A DNA stretch of 64,000 bases, taken from NCBI GenBank assembly GCA_031285405.1, contig JAITWH010000013.1:1-64000 (forward strand), in the 5' to 3' direction. This DNA is from Alistipes sp. (lineage in GTDB: Bacteria; Bacteroidota; Bacteroidia; Bacteroidales; Rikenellaceae). The position numbers and the translations under genes are program-made. Shown here one piece after another: positions 10,746-19,092 of this stretch (position 1 is the stretch's first letter; each line of letters opens with the position of its first letter). Under the pieces are notes generated by a model. It saw only the letters and a program-made list of their open reading frames with translations. It did not search any database and had not been told where the DNA came from.

Positions 10746-13187
10746 TTATCGGACGTTTGCTATGCTGATGATGTCGGCGAAGACTCCGGCGGCGGTGACG
10801 TCGTCGCCCGCTCCGTAGCCCTTGATCTCCATCGGGTAGTCTTTGTAGCGCTCGGTGGTGAGCAGGATCACGTTGTTGCTGCCGTCGAGCTCGTAGAACG
10901 GACTGCGCGAGTCGACCTCACGGAGCGCGACGCTTGCGCGACCCCCCTCCATCGTGGCGACGAAGCGCCAGCGCAAGCCCTTGGCCACGAGCTCTTTGCG
11001 CCGTTTCTCGAAGTCGGCGTCGAGCCCGGGCACGGCGGCCCAGAAGTCGTCTAACGTGCCGGCGAAGTACTTCTCGGGTATGAAGAGTTGCGCGGCGATG
11101 TCGCCCATGTCTAACCGGTAGCCCGCCTCGCGCGAGAGGATCACAAGTTTTCGCATCACATCCTTGCCGCTCAGGTCGATGCGCGGGTCGGGCTCGGCGT
11201 AGCCCGCCTCGACGGCGCGGCGAATCGTGGCGCTGAAGGGCACCGTGTCGCTCATCTCGTTGAAGATGAAGTTGAGGGTGCCGCTCACCACAGCCTCGAT
11301 GCGCAGGATGCGGTCGCCGCTGCCCACAAGGTCGCCTATCGTCTTGATGATCGGCAGGCCCGCGCCGACGTTGGTCTCGAACAGGAACTTGGCTCCGCGT
11401 TTGCGTGCCGTCGACTTGAGCGCCACGTAGTTGTCGTAGTCGCCCGAGGCCGCAACCTTGTTGGCCGCCACCACCGACACGTTGTGGCTCAGCAGCTCGC
11501 GGTAGGTGGACGCCACGGCGTCGTTGGCCGTGCAGTCGACGAACACGGGGTTGAAGGTGTTGAGACCCACTATGGCGTCGCGGTAGCTCTCCGTCGACGA
11601 GGGCTCCCCATCGGCGTCCAACTGCTCGCGCCATGTGGCGAGGTCGATGCCGGCGCGGTTCATGATATATTTGCGCGAGTTGGCGATGCCCACCACCCGC
11701 ACCTGCAGTGAGTTCTCCTTCTGGAACTTGGGTTGCTGCTGGCGGATCTGCTCCAACAGGCTGCGCCCCACCGTGCCGACTCCCGCGACGAAGAGGTTGA
11801 GCACCTGATAGTCCCACAGCAGGAACGAGTCGTGGAGCGCGCCCAGCGCCTTGCGCAGGTTGACGGCCTCGATGACGAACGAGATATTGGTCTCCAACGC
11901 CCCTTGTGCGCACGAGATCACGCTGATGCCGCTGCGTCCGAGGGTGTCGAAGAGTTTGGCCGACACTCCCACCCGTCCGCGCATGTTCTCGCCCACCACC
12001 GCCACCGTGGCCAGGTCGTAGGTGGGGGTTATCTCGTTGATCTCGCCCTGGCGGATCTCCTGCGCGAACTCGTCGGACAGCACTCGCACCGAGGCCGCGC
12101 CATCCTCGTGCCTCACGCCGATCGAGGTGCTGCTCTCGCTCGACGCCTGCGACACGAAGAAGACGCTGATGCCCGCCTTGGACAGCGCCTTGAAAATGCG
12201 ATAGTTGACGCCGATCACCCCAACCATGCCGAGGCCGCGCACCGTGATGAGGCAGGTGTCGCCGATCGACGATATCCCTTTTATTATCTTGGCGCCGTCG
12301 CCGTCGTCCGGAGCCGACGAAATATATGTTCCGGGCGAGTCGGCGTTGAAGGTGTTGCGCACGCGGATGGGGATGTTCTTCTGGTACACAGGAAAAATCG
12401 TCGACGGAAACAGCACCTTTGCGCCGAAGTTGCACAGCTCCATCGCCTCGCCGAAGGTCAGACGCTCGATCAGGTAGGTGTTGTCGATGATGCGCGGGTC
12501 GGCGCTGCGGAAGCCGTCGACGTCGGTCCAGATCTCAAGCACGCTTGCGTCCAACGCCGCAGCGACTATGGCGCCCGTGTAGTCGGAGCCGCCGCGTCCG
12601 AGGGTCGTGGTGTCGCCCGTCGTGGCGTCGGCCGCTATGAATCCTCCCATCACGGCTATGTGCGGCTTGTGGCTGAAGGCCTCCCGCACGAGCTTCTCCG
12701 TCAGGGCAAGGTCGACAACGTGCTTCGAGTAGTAGGGGTGGGTCTTGATCATCGCGCGCGCGTCGAACAGCTCCGCTCCCGCGATCATCCCCGCAACGAT
12801 CACCGACGAGAGCCGCTCGCCGTAGCCCAACACCGTGTCGCGGGTCTTGGGCGAGAGGTCGCGGATCAGAAACACGCCGCGCAGAATGTTGCCCAACTCT
12901 CCCAACAGCGCCTCGACGGCCTGTGCTGTCTCTTTGCGCTTTTCGGGCAGCGACGTCGCCGCGACCATCGCAGTGTGGCGCGCAGTCAACGCCTCGAACT
13001 CTTTTTCGTACGCCGAGTCGCCCCTGTGGGCCGTGACGGCCAGCGAGAGCAACTCGTCTGTCACCCCACCCAACGCCGAAACCACAACCACAACGTCGTC
13101 AGTGGCGGAAAGAACTATTTTTTTGACGAGCCCGGCAGCCTCGGCACTCCCAACCGAACTGCCACCGAATTTCATTACCTTTGTCAT
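10746..13187 (-). CDS. thrA: Bifunctional aspartate kinase / homoserine dehydrogenase I
   Basis: MTKVMKFGGSSVGSAEAAG at N-term; homoserine dehydrogenase C-terminal half. Confidence 0.95.
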   Translation of the reverse strand: MTKVMKFGGSSVGSAEAAGLVKKIVLSATDDVVVVVSALGGVTDELLSLAVTAHRGDSAYEKEFEALTARHTAMVAATSLPEKRKETAQAVEALLGELGNILRGVFLIRDLSPKTRDTVLGYGERLSSVIVAGMIAGAELFDARAMIKTHPYYSKHVVDLALTEKLVREAFSHKPHIAVMGGFIAADATTGDTTTLGRGGSDYTGAIVAAALDASVLEIWTDVDGFRSADPRIIDNTYLIERLTFGEAMELCNFGAKVLFPSTIFPVYQKNIPIRVRNTFNADSPGTYISSAPDDGDGAKIIKGISSIGDTCLITVRGLGMVGVIGVNYRIFKALSKAGISVFFVSQASSESSTSIGVRHEDGAASVRVLSDEFAQEIRQGEINEITPTYDLATVAVVGENMRGRVGVSAKLFDTLGRSGISVISCAQGALETNISFVIEAVNLRKALGALHDSFLLWDYQVLNLFVAGVGTVGRSLLEQIRQQQPKFQKENSLQVRVVGIANSRKYIMNRAGIDLATWREQLDADGEPSSTESYRDAIVGLNTFNPVFVDCTANDAVASTYRELLSHNVSVVAANKVAASGDYDNYVALKSTARKRGAKFLFETNVGAGLPIIKTIGDLVGSGDRILRIEAVVSGTLNFIFNEMSDTVPFSATIRRAVEAGYAEPDPRIDLSGKDVMRKLVILSREAGYRLDMGDIAAQLFIPEKYFAGTLDDFWAAVPGLDADFEKRRKELVAKGLRWRFVATMEGGRASVALREVDSRSPFYELDGSNNVILLTTERYKDYPMEIKGYGAGDDVTAAGVFADIISIANVR

Positions 13188-13282
13188 AACGGAAATTTTT
13201 TTCTCAAACCGCAAATCTACAAAAAAATAGCTATTTTTACGTTATTTTTGGCAAATCCCCTGTGGATTTAGCTACGCGGAAT

Positions 13283-13539
13283 GTTACTTTTTGCAAATCC
13301 AAAAAGTAACCAAAAAGATTGCCGGAACGCCGGCGGCGTTTTTTTGTTTACGGTATTTTGCGGTTGCACGCAGTGCAACACTATTTTAGATGAAATTCTG
13401 ACTCTGAAAATAAATTTTCAAGATCAGAATTTCATCTAAAATAGTAGCAGGGCATTCGCCCTGCCGCAAAATTCCGAGTACTCAAAATCGAGAAACGAAG
13501 TTTCTCTAAAAATTTTTGGGCGACTTTTTTAAAAGTCGC
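13283..13539. repeat. Dense cluster of perfect hairpins including a predicted cloverleaf (13351-13476)
   Basis: Hairpins 13283-13310, 13363-13379, 13380-13445 (22-bp arms plus inner 7-bp stem), 13447-13464, 13490-13506, 13520-13539; outer stem 13351-13363/13464-13476. Confidence 0.85.
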
Positions 13540-13564: not shown

Positions 13565-14293
13565 ATGTTGAGAACGACGATTACGGACTATGTAGGTGTG
13601 TTTGACAATCCGGTTGGGGTTTTTCGGAGTTTGGGGGAGCCGGTTGTTGAGCGTGATGTTTATGGCTTGCCGAGGATGTGGGTTGGTAATAGTGCCGCGG
13701 TTTTTGTCTATGCGGACGGGGCGGGGTGTCGGCGTTTTTTGAAGTGTTATGTTCGTCCTAATCCTCATTTGCGGAGTGTGTATGGCTATGTGGAGGGGCG
13801 GCGGCCGGCGTTGCTTCCTCGGGTTCGGCTGTTGAGGGATGAGTTGTTTGTTCACACGGCGGGCGGCGAGGCGGGGTGGGTCGACGTTGTGGAGGGGGAG
13901 TGGACGGCGGGGCCGACACTCGATGTGGCGGTGGCGCGTGCGGGGCGGGCGGGCGACGTGGGGCGTCTGGGGGCGCTTGCCGATGCTTTCGATGTGATGT
14001 GGCGTGAGCTCTCCGCCGCCGAGTGGGCACATGGCGACCTCAAGCCTGAGAATATCGTTGTGCGCGAAGATGGGACGTTGGGCCTGATAGATTGCGACGC
14101 GATGTGGATTCCCGAGTTGGCGGGCTGTCGGGCGGCCGAGTTGGGCACTCCGGGTTGGCGCGATCCGCGGCGCACGGCCGAGTGGTTCGACAAGGGGATC
14201 GACGACCACCCCGCGCGCATCATCTCGACCGGCCTTCGTGATCTTGTTGGGCAGCCGGGGCTTTATGGGCGGTTTGTTGTGCCGGAGATTTGA
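13565..14293 (+). CDS. Minimal protein kinase-like protein
   Basis: FLKCY Lys; AHGDLKPENIVVREDGTLGLIDCDAMWIPEL catalytic and metal-binding loops; ELGTPGWRDPRR. Confidence 0.75.
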   Translation: MLRTTITDYVGVFDNPVGVFRSLGEPVVERDVYGLPRMWVGNSAAVFVYADGAGCRRFLKCYVRPNPHLRSVYGYVEGRRPALLPRVRLLRDELFVHTAGGEAGWVDVVEGEWTAGPTLDVAVARAGRAGDVGRLGALADAFDVMWRELSAAEWAHGDLKPENIVVREDGTLGLIDCDAMWIPELAGCRAAELGTPGWRDPRRTAEWFDKGIDDHPARIISTGLRDLVGQPGLYGRFVVPEI

Positions 14294-14339
14294 AAATTTT
14301 CCTTACATTTGCAAATCAATCGAACCCGAACCGATAACA

Positions 14340-15194
14340 ATGTACAGCGCGCCCATCACCAGACTTCATCCCACTGCCTTTATTCTGCTTGTCGACCGTT
14401 CGGGGTCGATGGCCGAGCGGATCGTTTTCGGCGGCGTCGAGATGGCCAAGTCGCGCGCTGTGACTCTGGTCGCAGGCTCGTTTATCGACGAACTGTTGTA
14501 TCGCGCACGCCGCGAGGATGGCACGCGGGACTACTACGACATCGCCGTGTTGGGCTACTCGGGCGAAGGGGTGCGTTCGCTGGTCTCGGCCGAGGGGGAG
14601 TTTGTGCGCCCTTCGCGTCTTGCGGCGGCGGGTCCGCTCCGGAGCGAGAACGTCGTTCGCGAGAGGCTCCTGCCCTCGGGGCGCAGCGTGGTGGCGGTCA
14701 CTCGGCAAAGCGTCTGGTTCGACGAGTTGGCCTCGGGGGTGACTCCCATGTGCGGGGCTTTGGGAGAGGCGTTGGCGCTGGCCGGCAGGTGGTGCAGGCG
14801 CAACTCTACGAGCTACCCTCCCACAGTGATCAACATCACCGATGGCGAACCCTCCGACGGCGACGACGACAGGGTGCGCGACCTGGCCCGACGCATTCGT
14901 GCGACCTCGACGGCCGACGGGGAGACAATACTTATGAATATACATCTGGCGCGTGCGAGTGGCGTTGAGGCTCCGGTGCTCTTTCCCGCGTCGTTGTCCG
15001 AGCTGCCCGACCATCGTTACGCGCGGCTGCTGTGGGACGCTTCGAGCGAGATGCCGGTGGGGTACGCGGAGACGATTCGCGCGATGAAGGGCGGCGGCGA
15101 GGCGGGGGCGTTTCGAGCTGTGGGTTGGGGCAGTCACATCGGCGAGGTGGCCGCGATGATGAATATCGGCTCTGTAAATTCGGTGATGCTGTGA
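14340..15194 (+). CDS. vWA-domain protein (TerY-like)
   Basis: FILLVDRSGSM MIDAS motif, TPMCGAL, INITDGEPSDGDDD. Confidence 0.82.
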   Translation: MYSAPITRLHPTAFILLVDRSGSMAERIVFGGVEMAKSRAVTLVAGSFIDELLYRARREDGTRDYYDIAVLGYSGEGVRSLVSAEGEFVRPSRLAAAGPLRSENVVRERLLPSGRSVVAVTRQSVWFDELASGVTPMCGALGEALALAGRWCRRNSTSYPPTVINITDGEPSDGDDDRVRDLARRIRATSTADGETILMNIHLARASGVEAPVLFPASLSELPDHRYARLLWDASSEMPVGYAETIRAMKGGGEAGAFRAVGWGSHIGEVAAMMNIGSVNSVML

Positions 15195-16294
15195 TAGTTA
15201 CGATCGGACAATATATGGAGACGCTCACCTCGTCCGACGGGCGCACGCGGACGTTGCACAGGTTGCGGCCTCTTCTCGGGGAGGATGGTCAGCTCCTCTT
15301 CTCGATGCCGGGTCACGGACTTGTGGACTTTGAGGTCGAGGCGCGCGGCGAAAAGTTGACCCTGCGCTGTCCGTTGAGGTGCGATGGGCCGGCGGTGGCG
15401 AGGCTGCGGGCTCTGGCTGCGCGCGACAGGGGGCTTGGCGGGAGATTCTTTTCGGAGTGGAGATTGTTGGAGGGCGAGCTGGTGCTGTTCGACGCTCTGG
15501 GGTGGCCGGTCGAGGTGGACGTGATGGTGCGGCCGACGCCTGTGGGGATGCCACTTGCCGATTTTGTCGCCTCGGCGGTGGTTCGTGGCGACACAGACGC
15601 TATTCGTGCCGCCATGCAGTCGTTCGGGGAGTTGGCCGTGTGGGCGCGACGCATGGATCGCGGAGTCGCGCCGACAAAGATAGTCGCCTCGCCCGAGGGG
15701 GCGCTGTCGGTGATCGCCTTCTCGGCCGACGACTGGAGCGAACGGATATTCGAGATGCTGCAACGGGCGGCCGAGGCGCCGCAAAACGCAGGTTACGACT
15801 TCGGCGAGGGCGAGGGGGTGCGATTGGTGCGCGACGACGGGGGCGGATGGAGGTATGTCGACGGCTCGGGTTGCGCCGTCGTCGAGGGTGTGTGGAGTCA
15901 TGCCGCACCCTTCCGCGCAGGCAGGGCCGAGGTCGAAACCGCTACGGGGCGCGGATTGATCGACACGAGGGGCAGGGAGCTGCTCGCGCCGGTGTACGAA
16001 GAGTTGGTGTGGGACGACCGGTGGGGAGTGGTGGTGGCGATGCGCGATGGCGAGTGGAGGCTCTTCGATCGCGACGGCAGGGTGCTCACCGCCGACGCCT
16101 GCGACTGGATCGGCGAGTGCTTCGAGGGGCTGATGCTCGCGGTGCGCGACGGCCGGTGCGGATTCCTCGACGTGTGCGGCCGCGAGGCGATACCGTTTAT
16201 GTACGACAGCGCCTCCTCATTCTCGGAGGGGTGCTCGGTGGCGACGCTTGGCCCCGAAACTTTTCTTGTCGACCGGCGCGGGGTGCGGATATAG
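15191..16294 (+). CDS. Degenerate kinase-like domain fused to WG-type repeats
   Basis: GTG start overlaps preceding stop (GTGA; ATG alternative at 15215); WG-like repeats GLIDTRGRELLAPVYEEL / EWRLFDRDGRVLTAD / CGFLDVCGREAIPFMYDS. Confidence 0.65.
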   Translation: MIVTIGQYMETLTSSDGRTRTLHRLRPLLGEDGQLLFSMPGHGLVDFEVEARGEKLTLRCPLRCDGPAVARLRALAARDRGLGGRFFSEWRLLEGELVLFDALGWPVEVDVMVRPTPVGMPLADFVASAVVRGDTDAIRAAMQSFGELAVWARRMDRGVAPTKIVASPEGALSVIAFSADDWSERIFEMLQRAAEAPQNAGYDFGEGEGVRLVRDDGGGWRYVDGSGCAVVEGVWSHAAPFRAGRAEVETATGRGLIDTRGRELLAPVYEELVWDDRWGVVVAMRDGEWRLFDRDGRVLTADACDWIGECFEGLMLAVRDGRCGFLDVCGREAIPFMYDSASSFSEGCSVATLGPETFLVDRRGVRI

Positions 16295-16458: not shown

Positions 16459-19092
16459 ATGGCAGACGAAATCATTGAAGGGGCCGAGGCTCCGGAAGAA
16501 AATAACGAACAGCAAACCGGCGACCAAACGACGGCAGCCGACGAACAGCAAACCGACGAAGTTCAGACCGCCGGAGAGCAGTTGGCGGGGGGCGGACGCA
16601 TAGTCGAGGTCAACATCACCGAGCAGATGAAGAGCGCCTACATCGACTACTCGATGTCGGTGATCGTGTCGCGCGCGCTGCCCGACGTGAGGGACGGCCT
16701 CAAGCCGGTGCACCGCCGAATCCTCTACGACATGTCGAACGAGTTGGGGCTCTACTCCGACAAGCCGCACAGGAAGAGCGCCCGTATCGTGGGGGACGTC
16801 TTGGGTAAGTTCCACCCCCACGGCGACGGCAGTGTGTATGACGCGATGGTGCGCATGGCCCAGGAGTGGAGTCTGCGCTATCCGCTGGTCGACGGTCAGG
16901 GTAACTTCGGGTCGCTCGACAACGACCCCCCCGCCGCAATGCGTTACACCGAGGCGAGGATGAGAAAGATCGCCGACGAGGTGATGAGCGACATCGACAA
17001 GGACACGATCGACTTCACCCTCAACTTCGACGACACGATGAACGAACCGACGGTGCTGCCGACGCGAGTTCCGCTGCTGCTCTGCAACGGCGCGAGCGGG
17101 ATCGCCGTCGGGATGGCCACCAACATGGCGCCCCACAACCTGGGCGAGGTGGTCGACGCCTGCGTGGCCTATATCGAGAAACCCGAGCTGGAGACGAGCG
17201 AACTGCTGGAGCACGTCAAGGGGCCCGACTTCCCCACCGGAGGTATCATATACGGCTACGAAGGGGTGCGCGAGGCGCTCGAAACGGGGCGCGGAAGGGT
17301 GATGATGAGGGGCAAGACCGACATCGAACTCACCCCGACGGGGCGCGAGATGATAGTCGTCACCGAGATACCGTATCAGGTCAACAAGGCCGACCTCATC
17401 AAGAAGATCGCCGATCTGATCAACGAAAAGAAGATCGAGGGAATATCGTACGTCAACGACGAGAGCGACCGCAAGGGGATGCGCATAGTGATCATCCTCA
17501 AACACGACGCCGTGGCGAGCGTGGTGCTCAATACCTTATATAAGATGACCGAGCTGCAGAAGTCGTTCGTGGTGAACAACATCGCGCTGGTCGACGGACG
17601 GCCCGTGTTGTTGAACCTCAAGGACATGGTGCGCGAGTTCGTCAAGCATCGTCACAACGTTGTGGTGCGCCGCACGAGGTTCGACCTGCGCAAGGCCGAG
17701 GAGAGGTTGCACATCGTGCAGGGTCTGCTCATCGCCCAGGACAACATCGACGAGGTGATCTCGATAATCCGCGGCTCGGAGAACACCGACACAGCCAAGC
17801 AGAGGTTGCAGGAGCGCTTCGGTCTCAGCGAGATTCAGTCGACGGAGATCGTCAACATGCGTCTGAGGGCCCTCACGGGTCTCGAACGAGGCAAGTTGCA
17901 GGACGAGCACGACGAACTGGTGCGCCGCATAGCCCGCTTCAACGAGATTCTGGGCAGCGAGGCCGAGCAGTACGGCGTCATTAAAGAGGAGCTTCTGGAG
18001 ATAAAAGCCAAGTACGGCGACGCCCGCCGCACGGAGATAGTGTACAGCGCCGAGGAGTTCAACCCCGAGGATTTCTACGCCGACGAGGAGATGGTGATCA
18101 CCATTTCGAGGATGGGCTACATCAAGCGCACCCCCCTGACCGACTACCGCACCCAGGCGAGGGGAGGCATCGGGGCGAAGGGTTCGGCGACGAGGGACGA
18201 GGACTTCATCGAACATCTGTACGTCGCCACGATGCACAACACCATGATGCTCTTCACCGAGAAGGGGAGGTGCTACTGGCTCAAGGTCTACAACATTCCC
18301 GAGGGGCCGCGCTCGGCAAAGGGGCGCGCGATTCAGAACCTGATTCAGATCGACCCCGACGACAAGGTGAGGGCATACATCAACGTCAAGCGATTGGACG
18401 ACAAGGAGTATGTCGACAACAACCACATCATAATGTGTACCCGCGAGGGGACGATCAAAAAGACGCTGCTTGAGGCATACTCGCGCCCGAGGCAGAACGG
18501 CGTCAACGCAATCACCATTCGCGAGAGCGACCAGCTCATCGAGGCCAAGTTGACGAGCGGCAGCGCCGAGGTGATGATTGCCTCCAACGCCGGCAAGGCA
18601 ATCCGCTTCAACGAAGCGACAGTCAGGCCGATAGGTCGCACGGGAGCAGGGGTGCGCGGCATCTCGCTCGGGGCGGACGAAGAGGTGATAGGCATGATCT
18701 GCATGGAGCCCGAGGATGGCAAGGATGTGTTGGTGCTGAGCGAAAAGGGCTACGGCAAGCGCACCGACCTCGACGAGTACCGCATCACCAACCGCGGCGG
18801 CAAGGGGGTCAAGACGATCAACGTCACCGAGAAGACGGGCGGCCTGATCTCCGTGCAGTCGGTGAGCGACGACGACGACCTGATGATCATCAACAAGAGC
18901 GGCATCACGATTCGCACCGCCGTGTCGGGAATCAGGGTTGCGGGTCGCGCGACGCAGGGGGTTCGCATCATCAACCTGCGCGAGGGCGACGGCATCGCGT
19001 CGGTGGTGGCCGTGCCCCGCAACGACGAGGAGGAAGCCGCAGACTCCGCGGAGACCGAAACCGGCGGCGAAACGACGGTCAATGAAAATTAA
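16459..19092 (+). CDS. gyrA: DNA gyrase subunit A
   Basis: [36 protein letters not shown]; GyrA C-terminal beta-pinwheel repeats. Confidence 0.97.

Follow-up and report, generated by a model that had tools for sequence, protein, structure and literature searches.

The window, by which we mean the whole stretch of 64,000 nucleotides that was analyzed, carries three co-directional genes on the plus strand at positions 13565 to 16294, between thrA and gyrA. They encode a kinase (KIN), a von Willebrand A protein (VWA) and a predicted pseudokinase fused to WG repeats (PK-WG); their features are listed in Table 1. After re-reading of the coordinates, the original prediction of three co-directional genes between thrA and gyrA agreed with the sequence down to the exact span, as did its GTGA stop/start overlap of the last two genes. 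A 4-base vWA/PK-WG overlap is also found in the loci L048, L052, L053, L054, L061, L065, and L066. The source genome is 82% complete and consists of 1.9 Mb in 50 contigs. The gap between thrA and the kinase gene contains a near-perfect palindrome with 32-nt arms (91% complementary) and a 2-nt spacer, perhaps a two-way terminator or a small repeat element. Two more near copies of its 21-nt arm, with 1 and 2 mismatches, respectively, lie elsewhere in the genome.

Table 1. Positions of the genes and sequence features at the locus.
Feature	Position	Strand	Basis or remark
thrA	10746..13214	-	
Near-perfect palindrome	13380..13445		Gap between thrA and the kinase gene
KIN, predicted active-type Ser/Thr-like kinase of the TerY-P (STK_OB) kind, 242 aa	13565..14293	+	PADLOC, AlphaFold, tree, alignment
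Catalytic loop HGDLKPEN (H156-N163) of KIN	14030..14053	+	H, G, D, K, N invariant in 20/20 sequences
D176-C-D178, DFG-equivalent metal-binding motif of KIN	14090..14098	+	Both Asp kept in every KIN sequence
VWA, TerY-like von Willebrand A protein, 284 aa	14340..15194	+	PADLOC TerY, MIDAS
GTGA overlap, vWA stop / PK-WG start (GTG start)	15191..15194	+	4-base overlap
PK-WG, 367 aa, predicted pseudokinase (residues ~1-200) and WG repeats (~204-367)	15191..16294	+	Sits in the PP2C position of TerY-P
WG-repeat (all-beta) domain of PK-WG	15800..16294	+	Pfam, AlphaFold
gyrA	16459..19092	+	

Sequence and predicted structure of the three proteins

The TerY-P triad is composed of a TerY vWA, a PP2C phosphatase and a Ser/Thr kinase in zinc-ribbon or OB forms, as outlined in PMC11090510 (citing Anantharaman 2012 and Gao 2020). 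Among the PADLOC models, KIN matched STK_OB, the TerY-P kinase (3.7e-16), and its AlphaFold model (pLDDT 93.3, pTM 0.88) gave Foldseek matches to kinases of the PDB. The catalytic Asp of the HGD motif and the DFG-equivalent Asp are kept in 20/20 KIN sequences, and the beta-3 Lys in 17 of the 20, with Arg in the remaining 3. Judged from the STK_OB match, these residues and the nesting of KIN in the kinase tree, it is a predicted active Ser/Thr-type kinase. Two other assignments were rejected: the NCBIfam lanthionine synthetase models LanL/LanKC matched only the kinase catalytic core of P0001, far below their cut-offs, and the Pfam aminoglycoside phosphotransferase family APH gave a weak core match (5e-5), with STK_OB matching much better and the tree in agreement.

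The original prediction had described a minimal kinase. The kinase assignment holds by motifs, STK_OB and fold; the term minimal applies to a shortened form, as most relatives of KIN are proteins of 377-516 aa consisting of a kinase and C-terminal WG repeats. In the window the WG tail is missing and the C-lobe ends after helix 210-229, and shortened forms of 238-274 aa, found in the window, L039, and L061, make up one clade in the kinase tree. Without the last C-lobe helices, the window KIN might be weak or inactive on its own. No OB-fold or zinc ribbon was found on the kinase; its relatives have WG repeats and the window KIN has no tail.

The second protein matched the PADLOC TerY model over its full length (1.7e-51). 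Its MIDAS, of the TerY-like form DxSxS...T...D, is intact (D19-S21-S23, T135, D168) and invariant in 26 sequences. With the vWA profile, no useful PDB sequence was found, and a PHROGs search gave no match. The expected kinase folds were recovered in AlphaFold models, and the vWA fold is assigned by sequence family (TerY model and MIDAS). Elsewhere in the same genome, three VWA_2 genes that are not of the TerY kind lie close together (G000:C6:63910-68809, L001-L003); they are perhaps Bat-type aerotolerance genes.

The third protein matches the Pfam WG repeats (6.6e-9), and its first 200 residues gave no convincing Pfam match. Comparison of profiles of the N-terminal parts only of PK-WG and KIN resulted in an E-value of 9e-44 and a probability of 100, while five column-shuffled control profiles remained at a probability of <1. 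In the AlphaFold model of PK-WG (pLDDT 91.7, pTM 0.56) both domains are sure and their mutual arrangement is not; Foldseek returned PDB kinases, kinase-propeller proteins and the kinase homology domain of mycobacterial Rv3910. The claim of a kinase-like protein fused to WG repeats is therefore confirmed by profile comparison, AlphaFold and the WG match, although Pfam misses the kinase part. The catalytic (HRD/HGD) Asp is kept in 0/21 PK sequences, the DFG-equivalent Asp in 2/21 and the beta-3 Lys in 4/21, and a kinase fold (AlphaFold/Foldseek) together with the loss of the HRD and DFG Asp in the alignment classes the protein as a predicted pseudokinase. E93 of KIN is invariant in 20/20 KIN and 21/21 PK and may reflect either the common fold or a contact shared by the two. 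The third genes of L039 and L045 look broken or split. A pseudokinase outside the Rikenellaceae was considered and rejected, as the HGD and DxD motifs are retained in 13/13 kinases from there, those that are doubled in L168 and L169 among them.

Distribution and gene order in the Rikenellaceae

Homologues of the vWA were found in 247/268 Rikenellaceae genomes covering all 22 genera, as a rule in one copy, and in 104 of the 110 good genomes (at least 90% complete, at most 5% contaminated). The kinase profile matched in 257/268 genomes, which is an upper bound since the profile also picks up PK-WG and other WG proteins. In the six good genomes without vWA (G209, G220, G335, G338, G371, and G444), the kinase profile found nothing in three and gave weak matches in the other three (2.9e-16, 2.8e-37, and 2.2e-17), which indicates joint loss of both genes. 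Outside the family the vWA is rare; in broader samples, it was present in 6/198 genomes of the order, including the window's genome and one Rikenellaceae member, and in 11/345 genomes of the class, including the window's genome. In the vWA tree the genera form single clades, each being one side of a branch for genera with at least two rows, and 13 changes for 14 groups is the minimum. Therefore, the gene was inherited vertically. Members of the gene set are weak or missing in some Alistipes lineages.

A scan of named genomes with an alignment query yielded 80 loci, from records titled Rikenellaceae, Alistipes, Rikenella, Tidjanibacter, Millionella, or Bacteroidales bacterium. A genome scan with the single sequence P0002 gave no hits. 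PK-WG lies directly downstream of vWA in 76/80 loci and upstream in 2. The conserved co-occurrence that had been predicted was thus confirmed, with the correction that the genes are a family-core set and not a local oddity. PK-WG was observed upstream of vWA, not downstream, in L040 and L123, which belong to a branch of the window's genus. KIN is adjacent upstream of vWA in 33/80 loci, upstream but separated by an insert of 1.2-2.6 kb in 30/80, elsewhere in the locus in 3/80, and beyond reach in the remaining loci, some of which are truncated at a contig end. The inserts, and the roughly one fifth of loci in which the kinase is not linked or lies beyond reach, speak against the explanation favored below.

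The Alistipes gene between kinase and vWA was considered as the missing PP2C and proved to be a DUF4954 gene in the one locus searched. In L067 (7478-9205), a DUF4954/DUF6819 gene lies between kinase and vWA and overlaps the vWA start by 1 base. As inserts of similar size occur in about 30 loci, a gene of this type may have joined the operon.

The neighbours in the Rikenellaceae loci read are housekeeping genes, such as thrA and gyrA in the window and gcvP and a tRNase Z-like gene in L067. A grouping of genomic contexts by shared neighbours joined nearly all loci by similarity. The thrA/gyrA surroundings are confined to near relatives (L039, with gyrA also in L041 and L061), and the gene set therefore stayed together while its surroundings changed.

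PP2C and TerY-P sets outside the family

In 12/12 loci read outside the Rikenellaceae, a PP2C gene, confirmed by the PADLOC PP2C model or by profile A4, is located directly downstream of vWA. Profile A4 was built from ten outside PP2C proteins that share invariant acidic and DG/GD motif residues, because PF13672 misses many TerY-P PP2C proteins and was rejected as a test for this reason. As a positive control, A4 found its target in 9/9 outside genomes, two of which (G066 and G657) were absent from the alignment. With this profile, the TerY-P PP2C was found in 0/268 Rikenellaceae genomes. Neither PF13672 nor PF00481 had a match in the window's own genome (82% complete), and TerD was found in 0/61 Rikenellaceae genomes. 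Accordingly, the cluster holds no PP2C gene and no ter genes (TerD) nearby, the latter being common in TerY-P and not required; the original prediction that no PP2C is visible stands after the search for distant copies of PP2C and TerD. General PP2C_2 proteins occur in 14/120 Rikenellaceae genomes, so dephosphorylation by an unlinked enzyme is still conceivable.

The Rikenellaceae module has in common with the TerY-P triad a TerY-like vWA with intact MIDAS, a kinase of the STK_OB kind and tight linkage. In contrast to the triad, it has no PP2C, and its third gene encodes a predicted pseudokinase-WG paralogue of the kinase. The kinase tail is an OB-fold or zinc ribbon in TerY-P and WG or lost in the Rikenellaceae, and TerY-P is sporadic while the module is family-core and vertical. 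Co-occurrence, kinase folds, the full-length TerY match and the lack of PP2C together support the proposed TerY-P variant without PP2C and with a pseudokinase-WG in third position. No paper on such a form was found in the literature searched, which was mostly open access.

Several TerY-P sets outside the family have further genes attached. The TerY-like vWA carries an N-terminal DarT ssDNA ADP-ribosyltransferase domain in L057 (8894-10357) and L164 (8911-10353), which looks like a TerY-P form with a built-in effector; in L057, a DUF6939 gene lies just upstream of this fusion, and the kinase is followed by leucine-rich repeats. In L059 (2614-4131), a protein of 505 aa joins a PP2C-like N-terminus (A4, 4e-30) to DarT; a TerY vWA is encoded nearby and is itself directly followed by a second PP2C. 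These DarT-fusion sets, in which PP2C is present, resemble the Rikenellaceae module in the kind of vWA and, for L057 and L164, of kinase, but they differ in having a DarT fusion of the vWA or the PP2C-like protein, leucine-rich repeats after the kinase (L057) and a defence-like setting. L165 has a type I restriction R-like protein near the TerY module, and on an Acaryochloris plasmid the vWA is followed by an annotated PP2C. The TerY-P sets of L168 (11428-13328) and L169 (6095-7940) contain two adjacent kinases behind PP2C, both with the catalytic residues kept.

Origin and proposed function of the module

KIN and PK form sister clades in the kinase tree (98/97 for KIN, 97/91 for PK, and 100/92 for the two joined), and the joint clade lies inside the TerY-P kinases next to L163, L164, and L057. 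As judged from the sequences, PK-WG is a paralogue of the kinase, since the two form sister clades and most KIN relatives are also kinase-WG proteins; one kinase duplication before the Rikenellaceae radiated is the simplest history. L163, in a 7 Mb Bacteroidia genome (G750), combines kinase-WG, vWA, and PP2C in one genome, the form expected of the ancestor. It is similar to the Rikenellaceae module in its vWA, the best-scoring one outside the family (299 bits), and in its kinase-WG with 9 repeats, but it has PP2C directly behind vWA, no pseudokinase and a divergently placed kinase gene. Very probably, an ancestral TerY-P set (kinase-WG, vWA, PP2C) would have lost PP2C before the Rikenellaceae radiation and the kinase-WG gene would have been duplicated, one copy losing the catalytic and metal-binding Asp and settling directly behind vWA. 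The position of PK in the place of PP2C is read from the gene order; that this was one event we infer, and the loss of PP2C and the arrival of PK need not be one and may have been separate events.

For the mechanism, we tentatively suggest that the vWA is an adaptor and PK-WG an allosteric, ligand-sensing partner of KIN. The ligand sensor or scaffold role that the original prediction gave to PK-WG is likewise tentative. Via its metal site, the vWA would keep KIN and PK-WG together in a complex; the WG domain of PK-WG would bind a ligand or partner, and the pseudokinase would relay this binding to the kinase allosterically. Binding, rather than a phosphatase within the module, would then determine the activity of KIN, and in the window lineage, where KIN has lost its own WG tail, the pseudokinase would be the sole sensing arm. 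Taking evolution and mechanism jointly, we consider it fairly probable that the module is a domesticated TerY-P descendant with a pseudokinase-WG in the phosphatase's place, probably acting as allosteric regulator and sensor, and most likely it serves a housekeeping stress or envelope signal and not phage defence. LKB1-STRAD is a eukaryotic kinase-pseudokinase pair with an adaptor. The proposed arrangement of active kinase, pseudokinase partner and adaptor would resemble it by analogy only, the assembly not being homologous.

A more speculative reading, which may nevertheless apply, is that a mobile phosphorylation switch directed against phages, which the Rikenellaceae ancestor captured once, became a core signalling module in which a duplicated, dead kinase copy holds the phosphatase's regulatory seat and enzymatic reversal is replaced by ligand-gated pseudokinase binding. 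If true, this would show how a defence switch made of kinase and phosphatase can do without the latter and be remade into a housekeeping system. The PP2C slot and the pseudokinase slot would offer a clean natural contrast for learning the role of TerY in TerY-P, and the findings point to an unstudied phosphorylation module common to Alistipes and its kin, which are common gut bacteria.

The original prediction had also called the genes a defence-like module, and it is rather improbable that they still form a stand-alone anti-phage system of the TerY-P type with PK-WG, in the place of PP2C, regulating an abortive or protective response. TerY-P-like modules with kinase-OB do act against phages, with the mechanism of TerY-P being hypothesised only (PMC7699616, PMC11090510, and PMC10889362). 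The TerY and STK_OB models that matched belong to a defence database, and outside the Rikenellaceae TerY modules occur in fusion or linkage with DarT and restriction-type genes. However, the near-universal presence in one family, the vertical inheritance and the housekeeping flanks wherever loci were read leave a present defence role unsupported; no recurring effector or nuclease gene was seen in the loci. Searches of phage records returned none with the module, and among plasmids a relative was found in two only, both cyanobacterial, which likewise counts against this explanation.

The domesticated, ligand-sensing module that we favor has a further competitor in PK-WG as the main substrate or target-binding arm, in which case KIN would phosphorylate PK-WG and the WG domain would then bind or release a target. 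We regard this as unlikely, if somewhat less so than a standing defence system. Paralogues that keep the N-terminal segment and the invariant E93 could pair, and PK evolves fastest of the three proteins (mean distance 0.68 compared to 0.53-0.56), but sequence alone cannot tell a substrate role from allosteric regulation. The pairwise distances of KIN, vWA, and PK correlate (r = 0.67, 0.41, and 0.51), as expected because the genes are co-inherited, and this counts in favor of the domesticated module.

It is highly improbable that the genes are decaying remnants, i.e., a truncated and a dead kinase whose proximity is mere inheritance. Such decay could account for the shortened KIN of the window, L039, and L061, for the weak or missing members in some Alistipes lineages and for the broken or split third genes of L039 and L045. 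However, in the genes and pairs tested, dN/dS was about 0.05-0.37 for each of KIN, vWA, and PK, with some synonymous distances near saturation, which indicates purifying selection on all of them and is the reverse of the values near 1 or the frequent frameshifts that decay would produce in close relatives. The invariant MIDAS and catalytic residues, the linkage of vWA and PK in 76/80 loci and the confident AlphaFold folds argue in the same direction.
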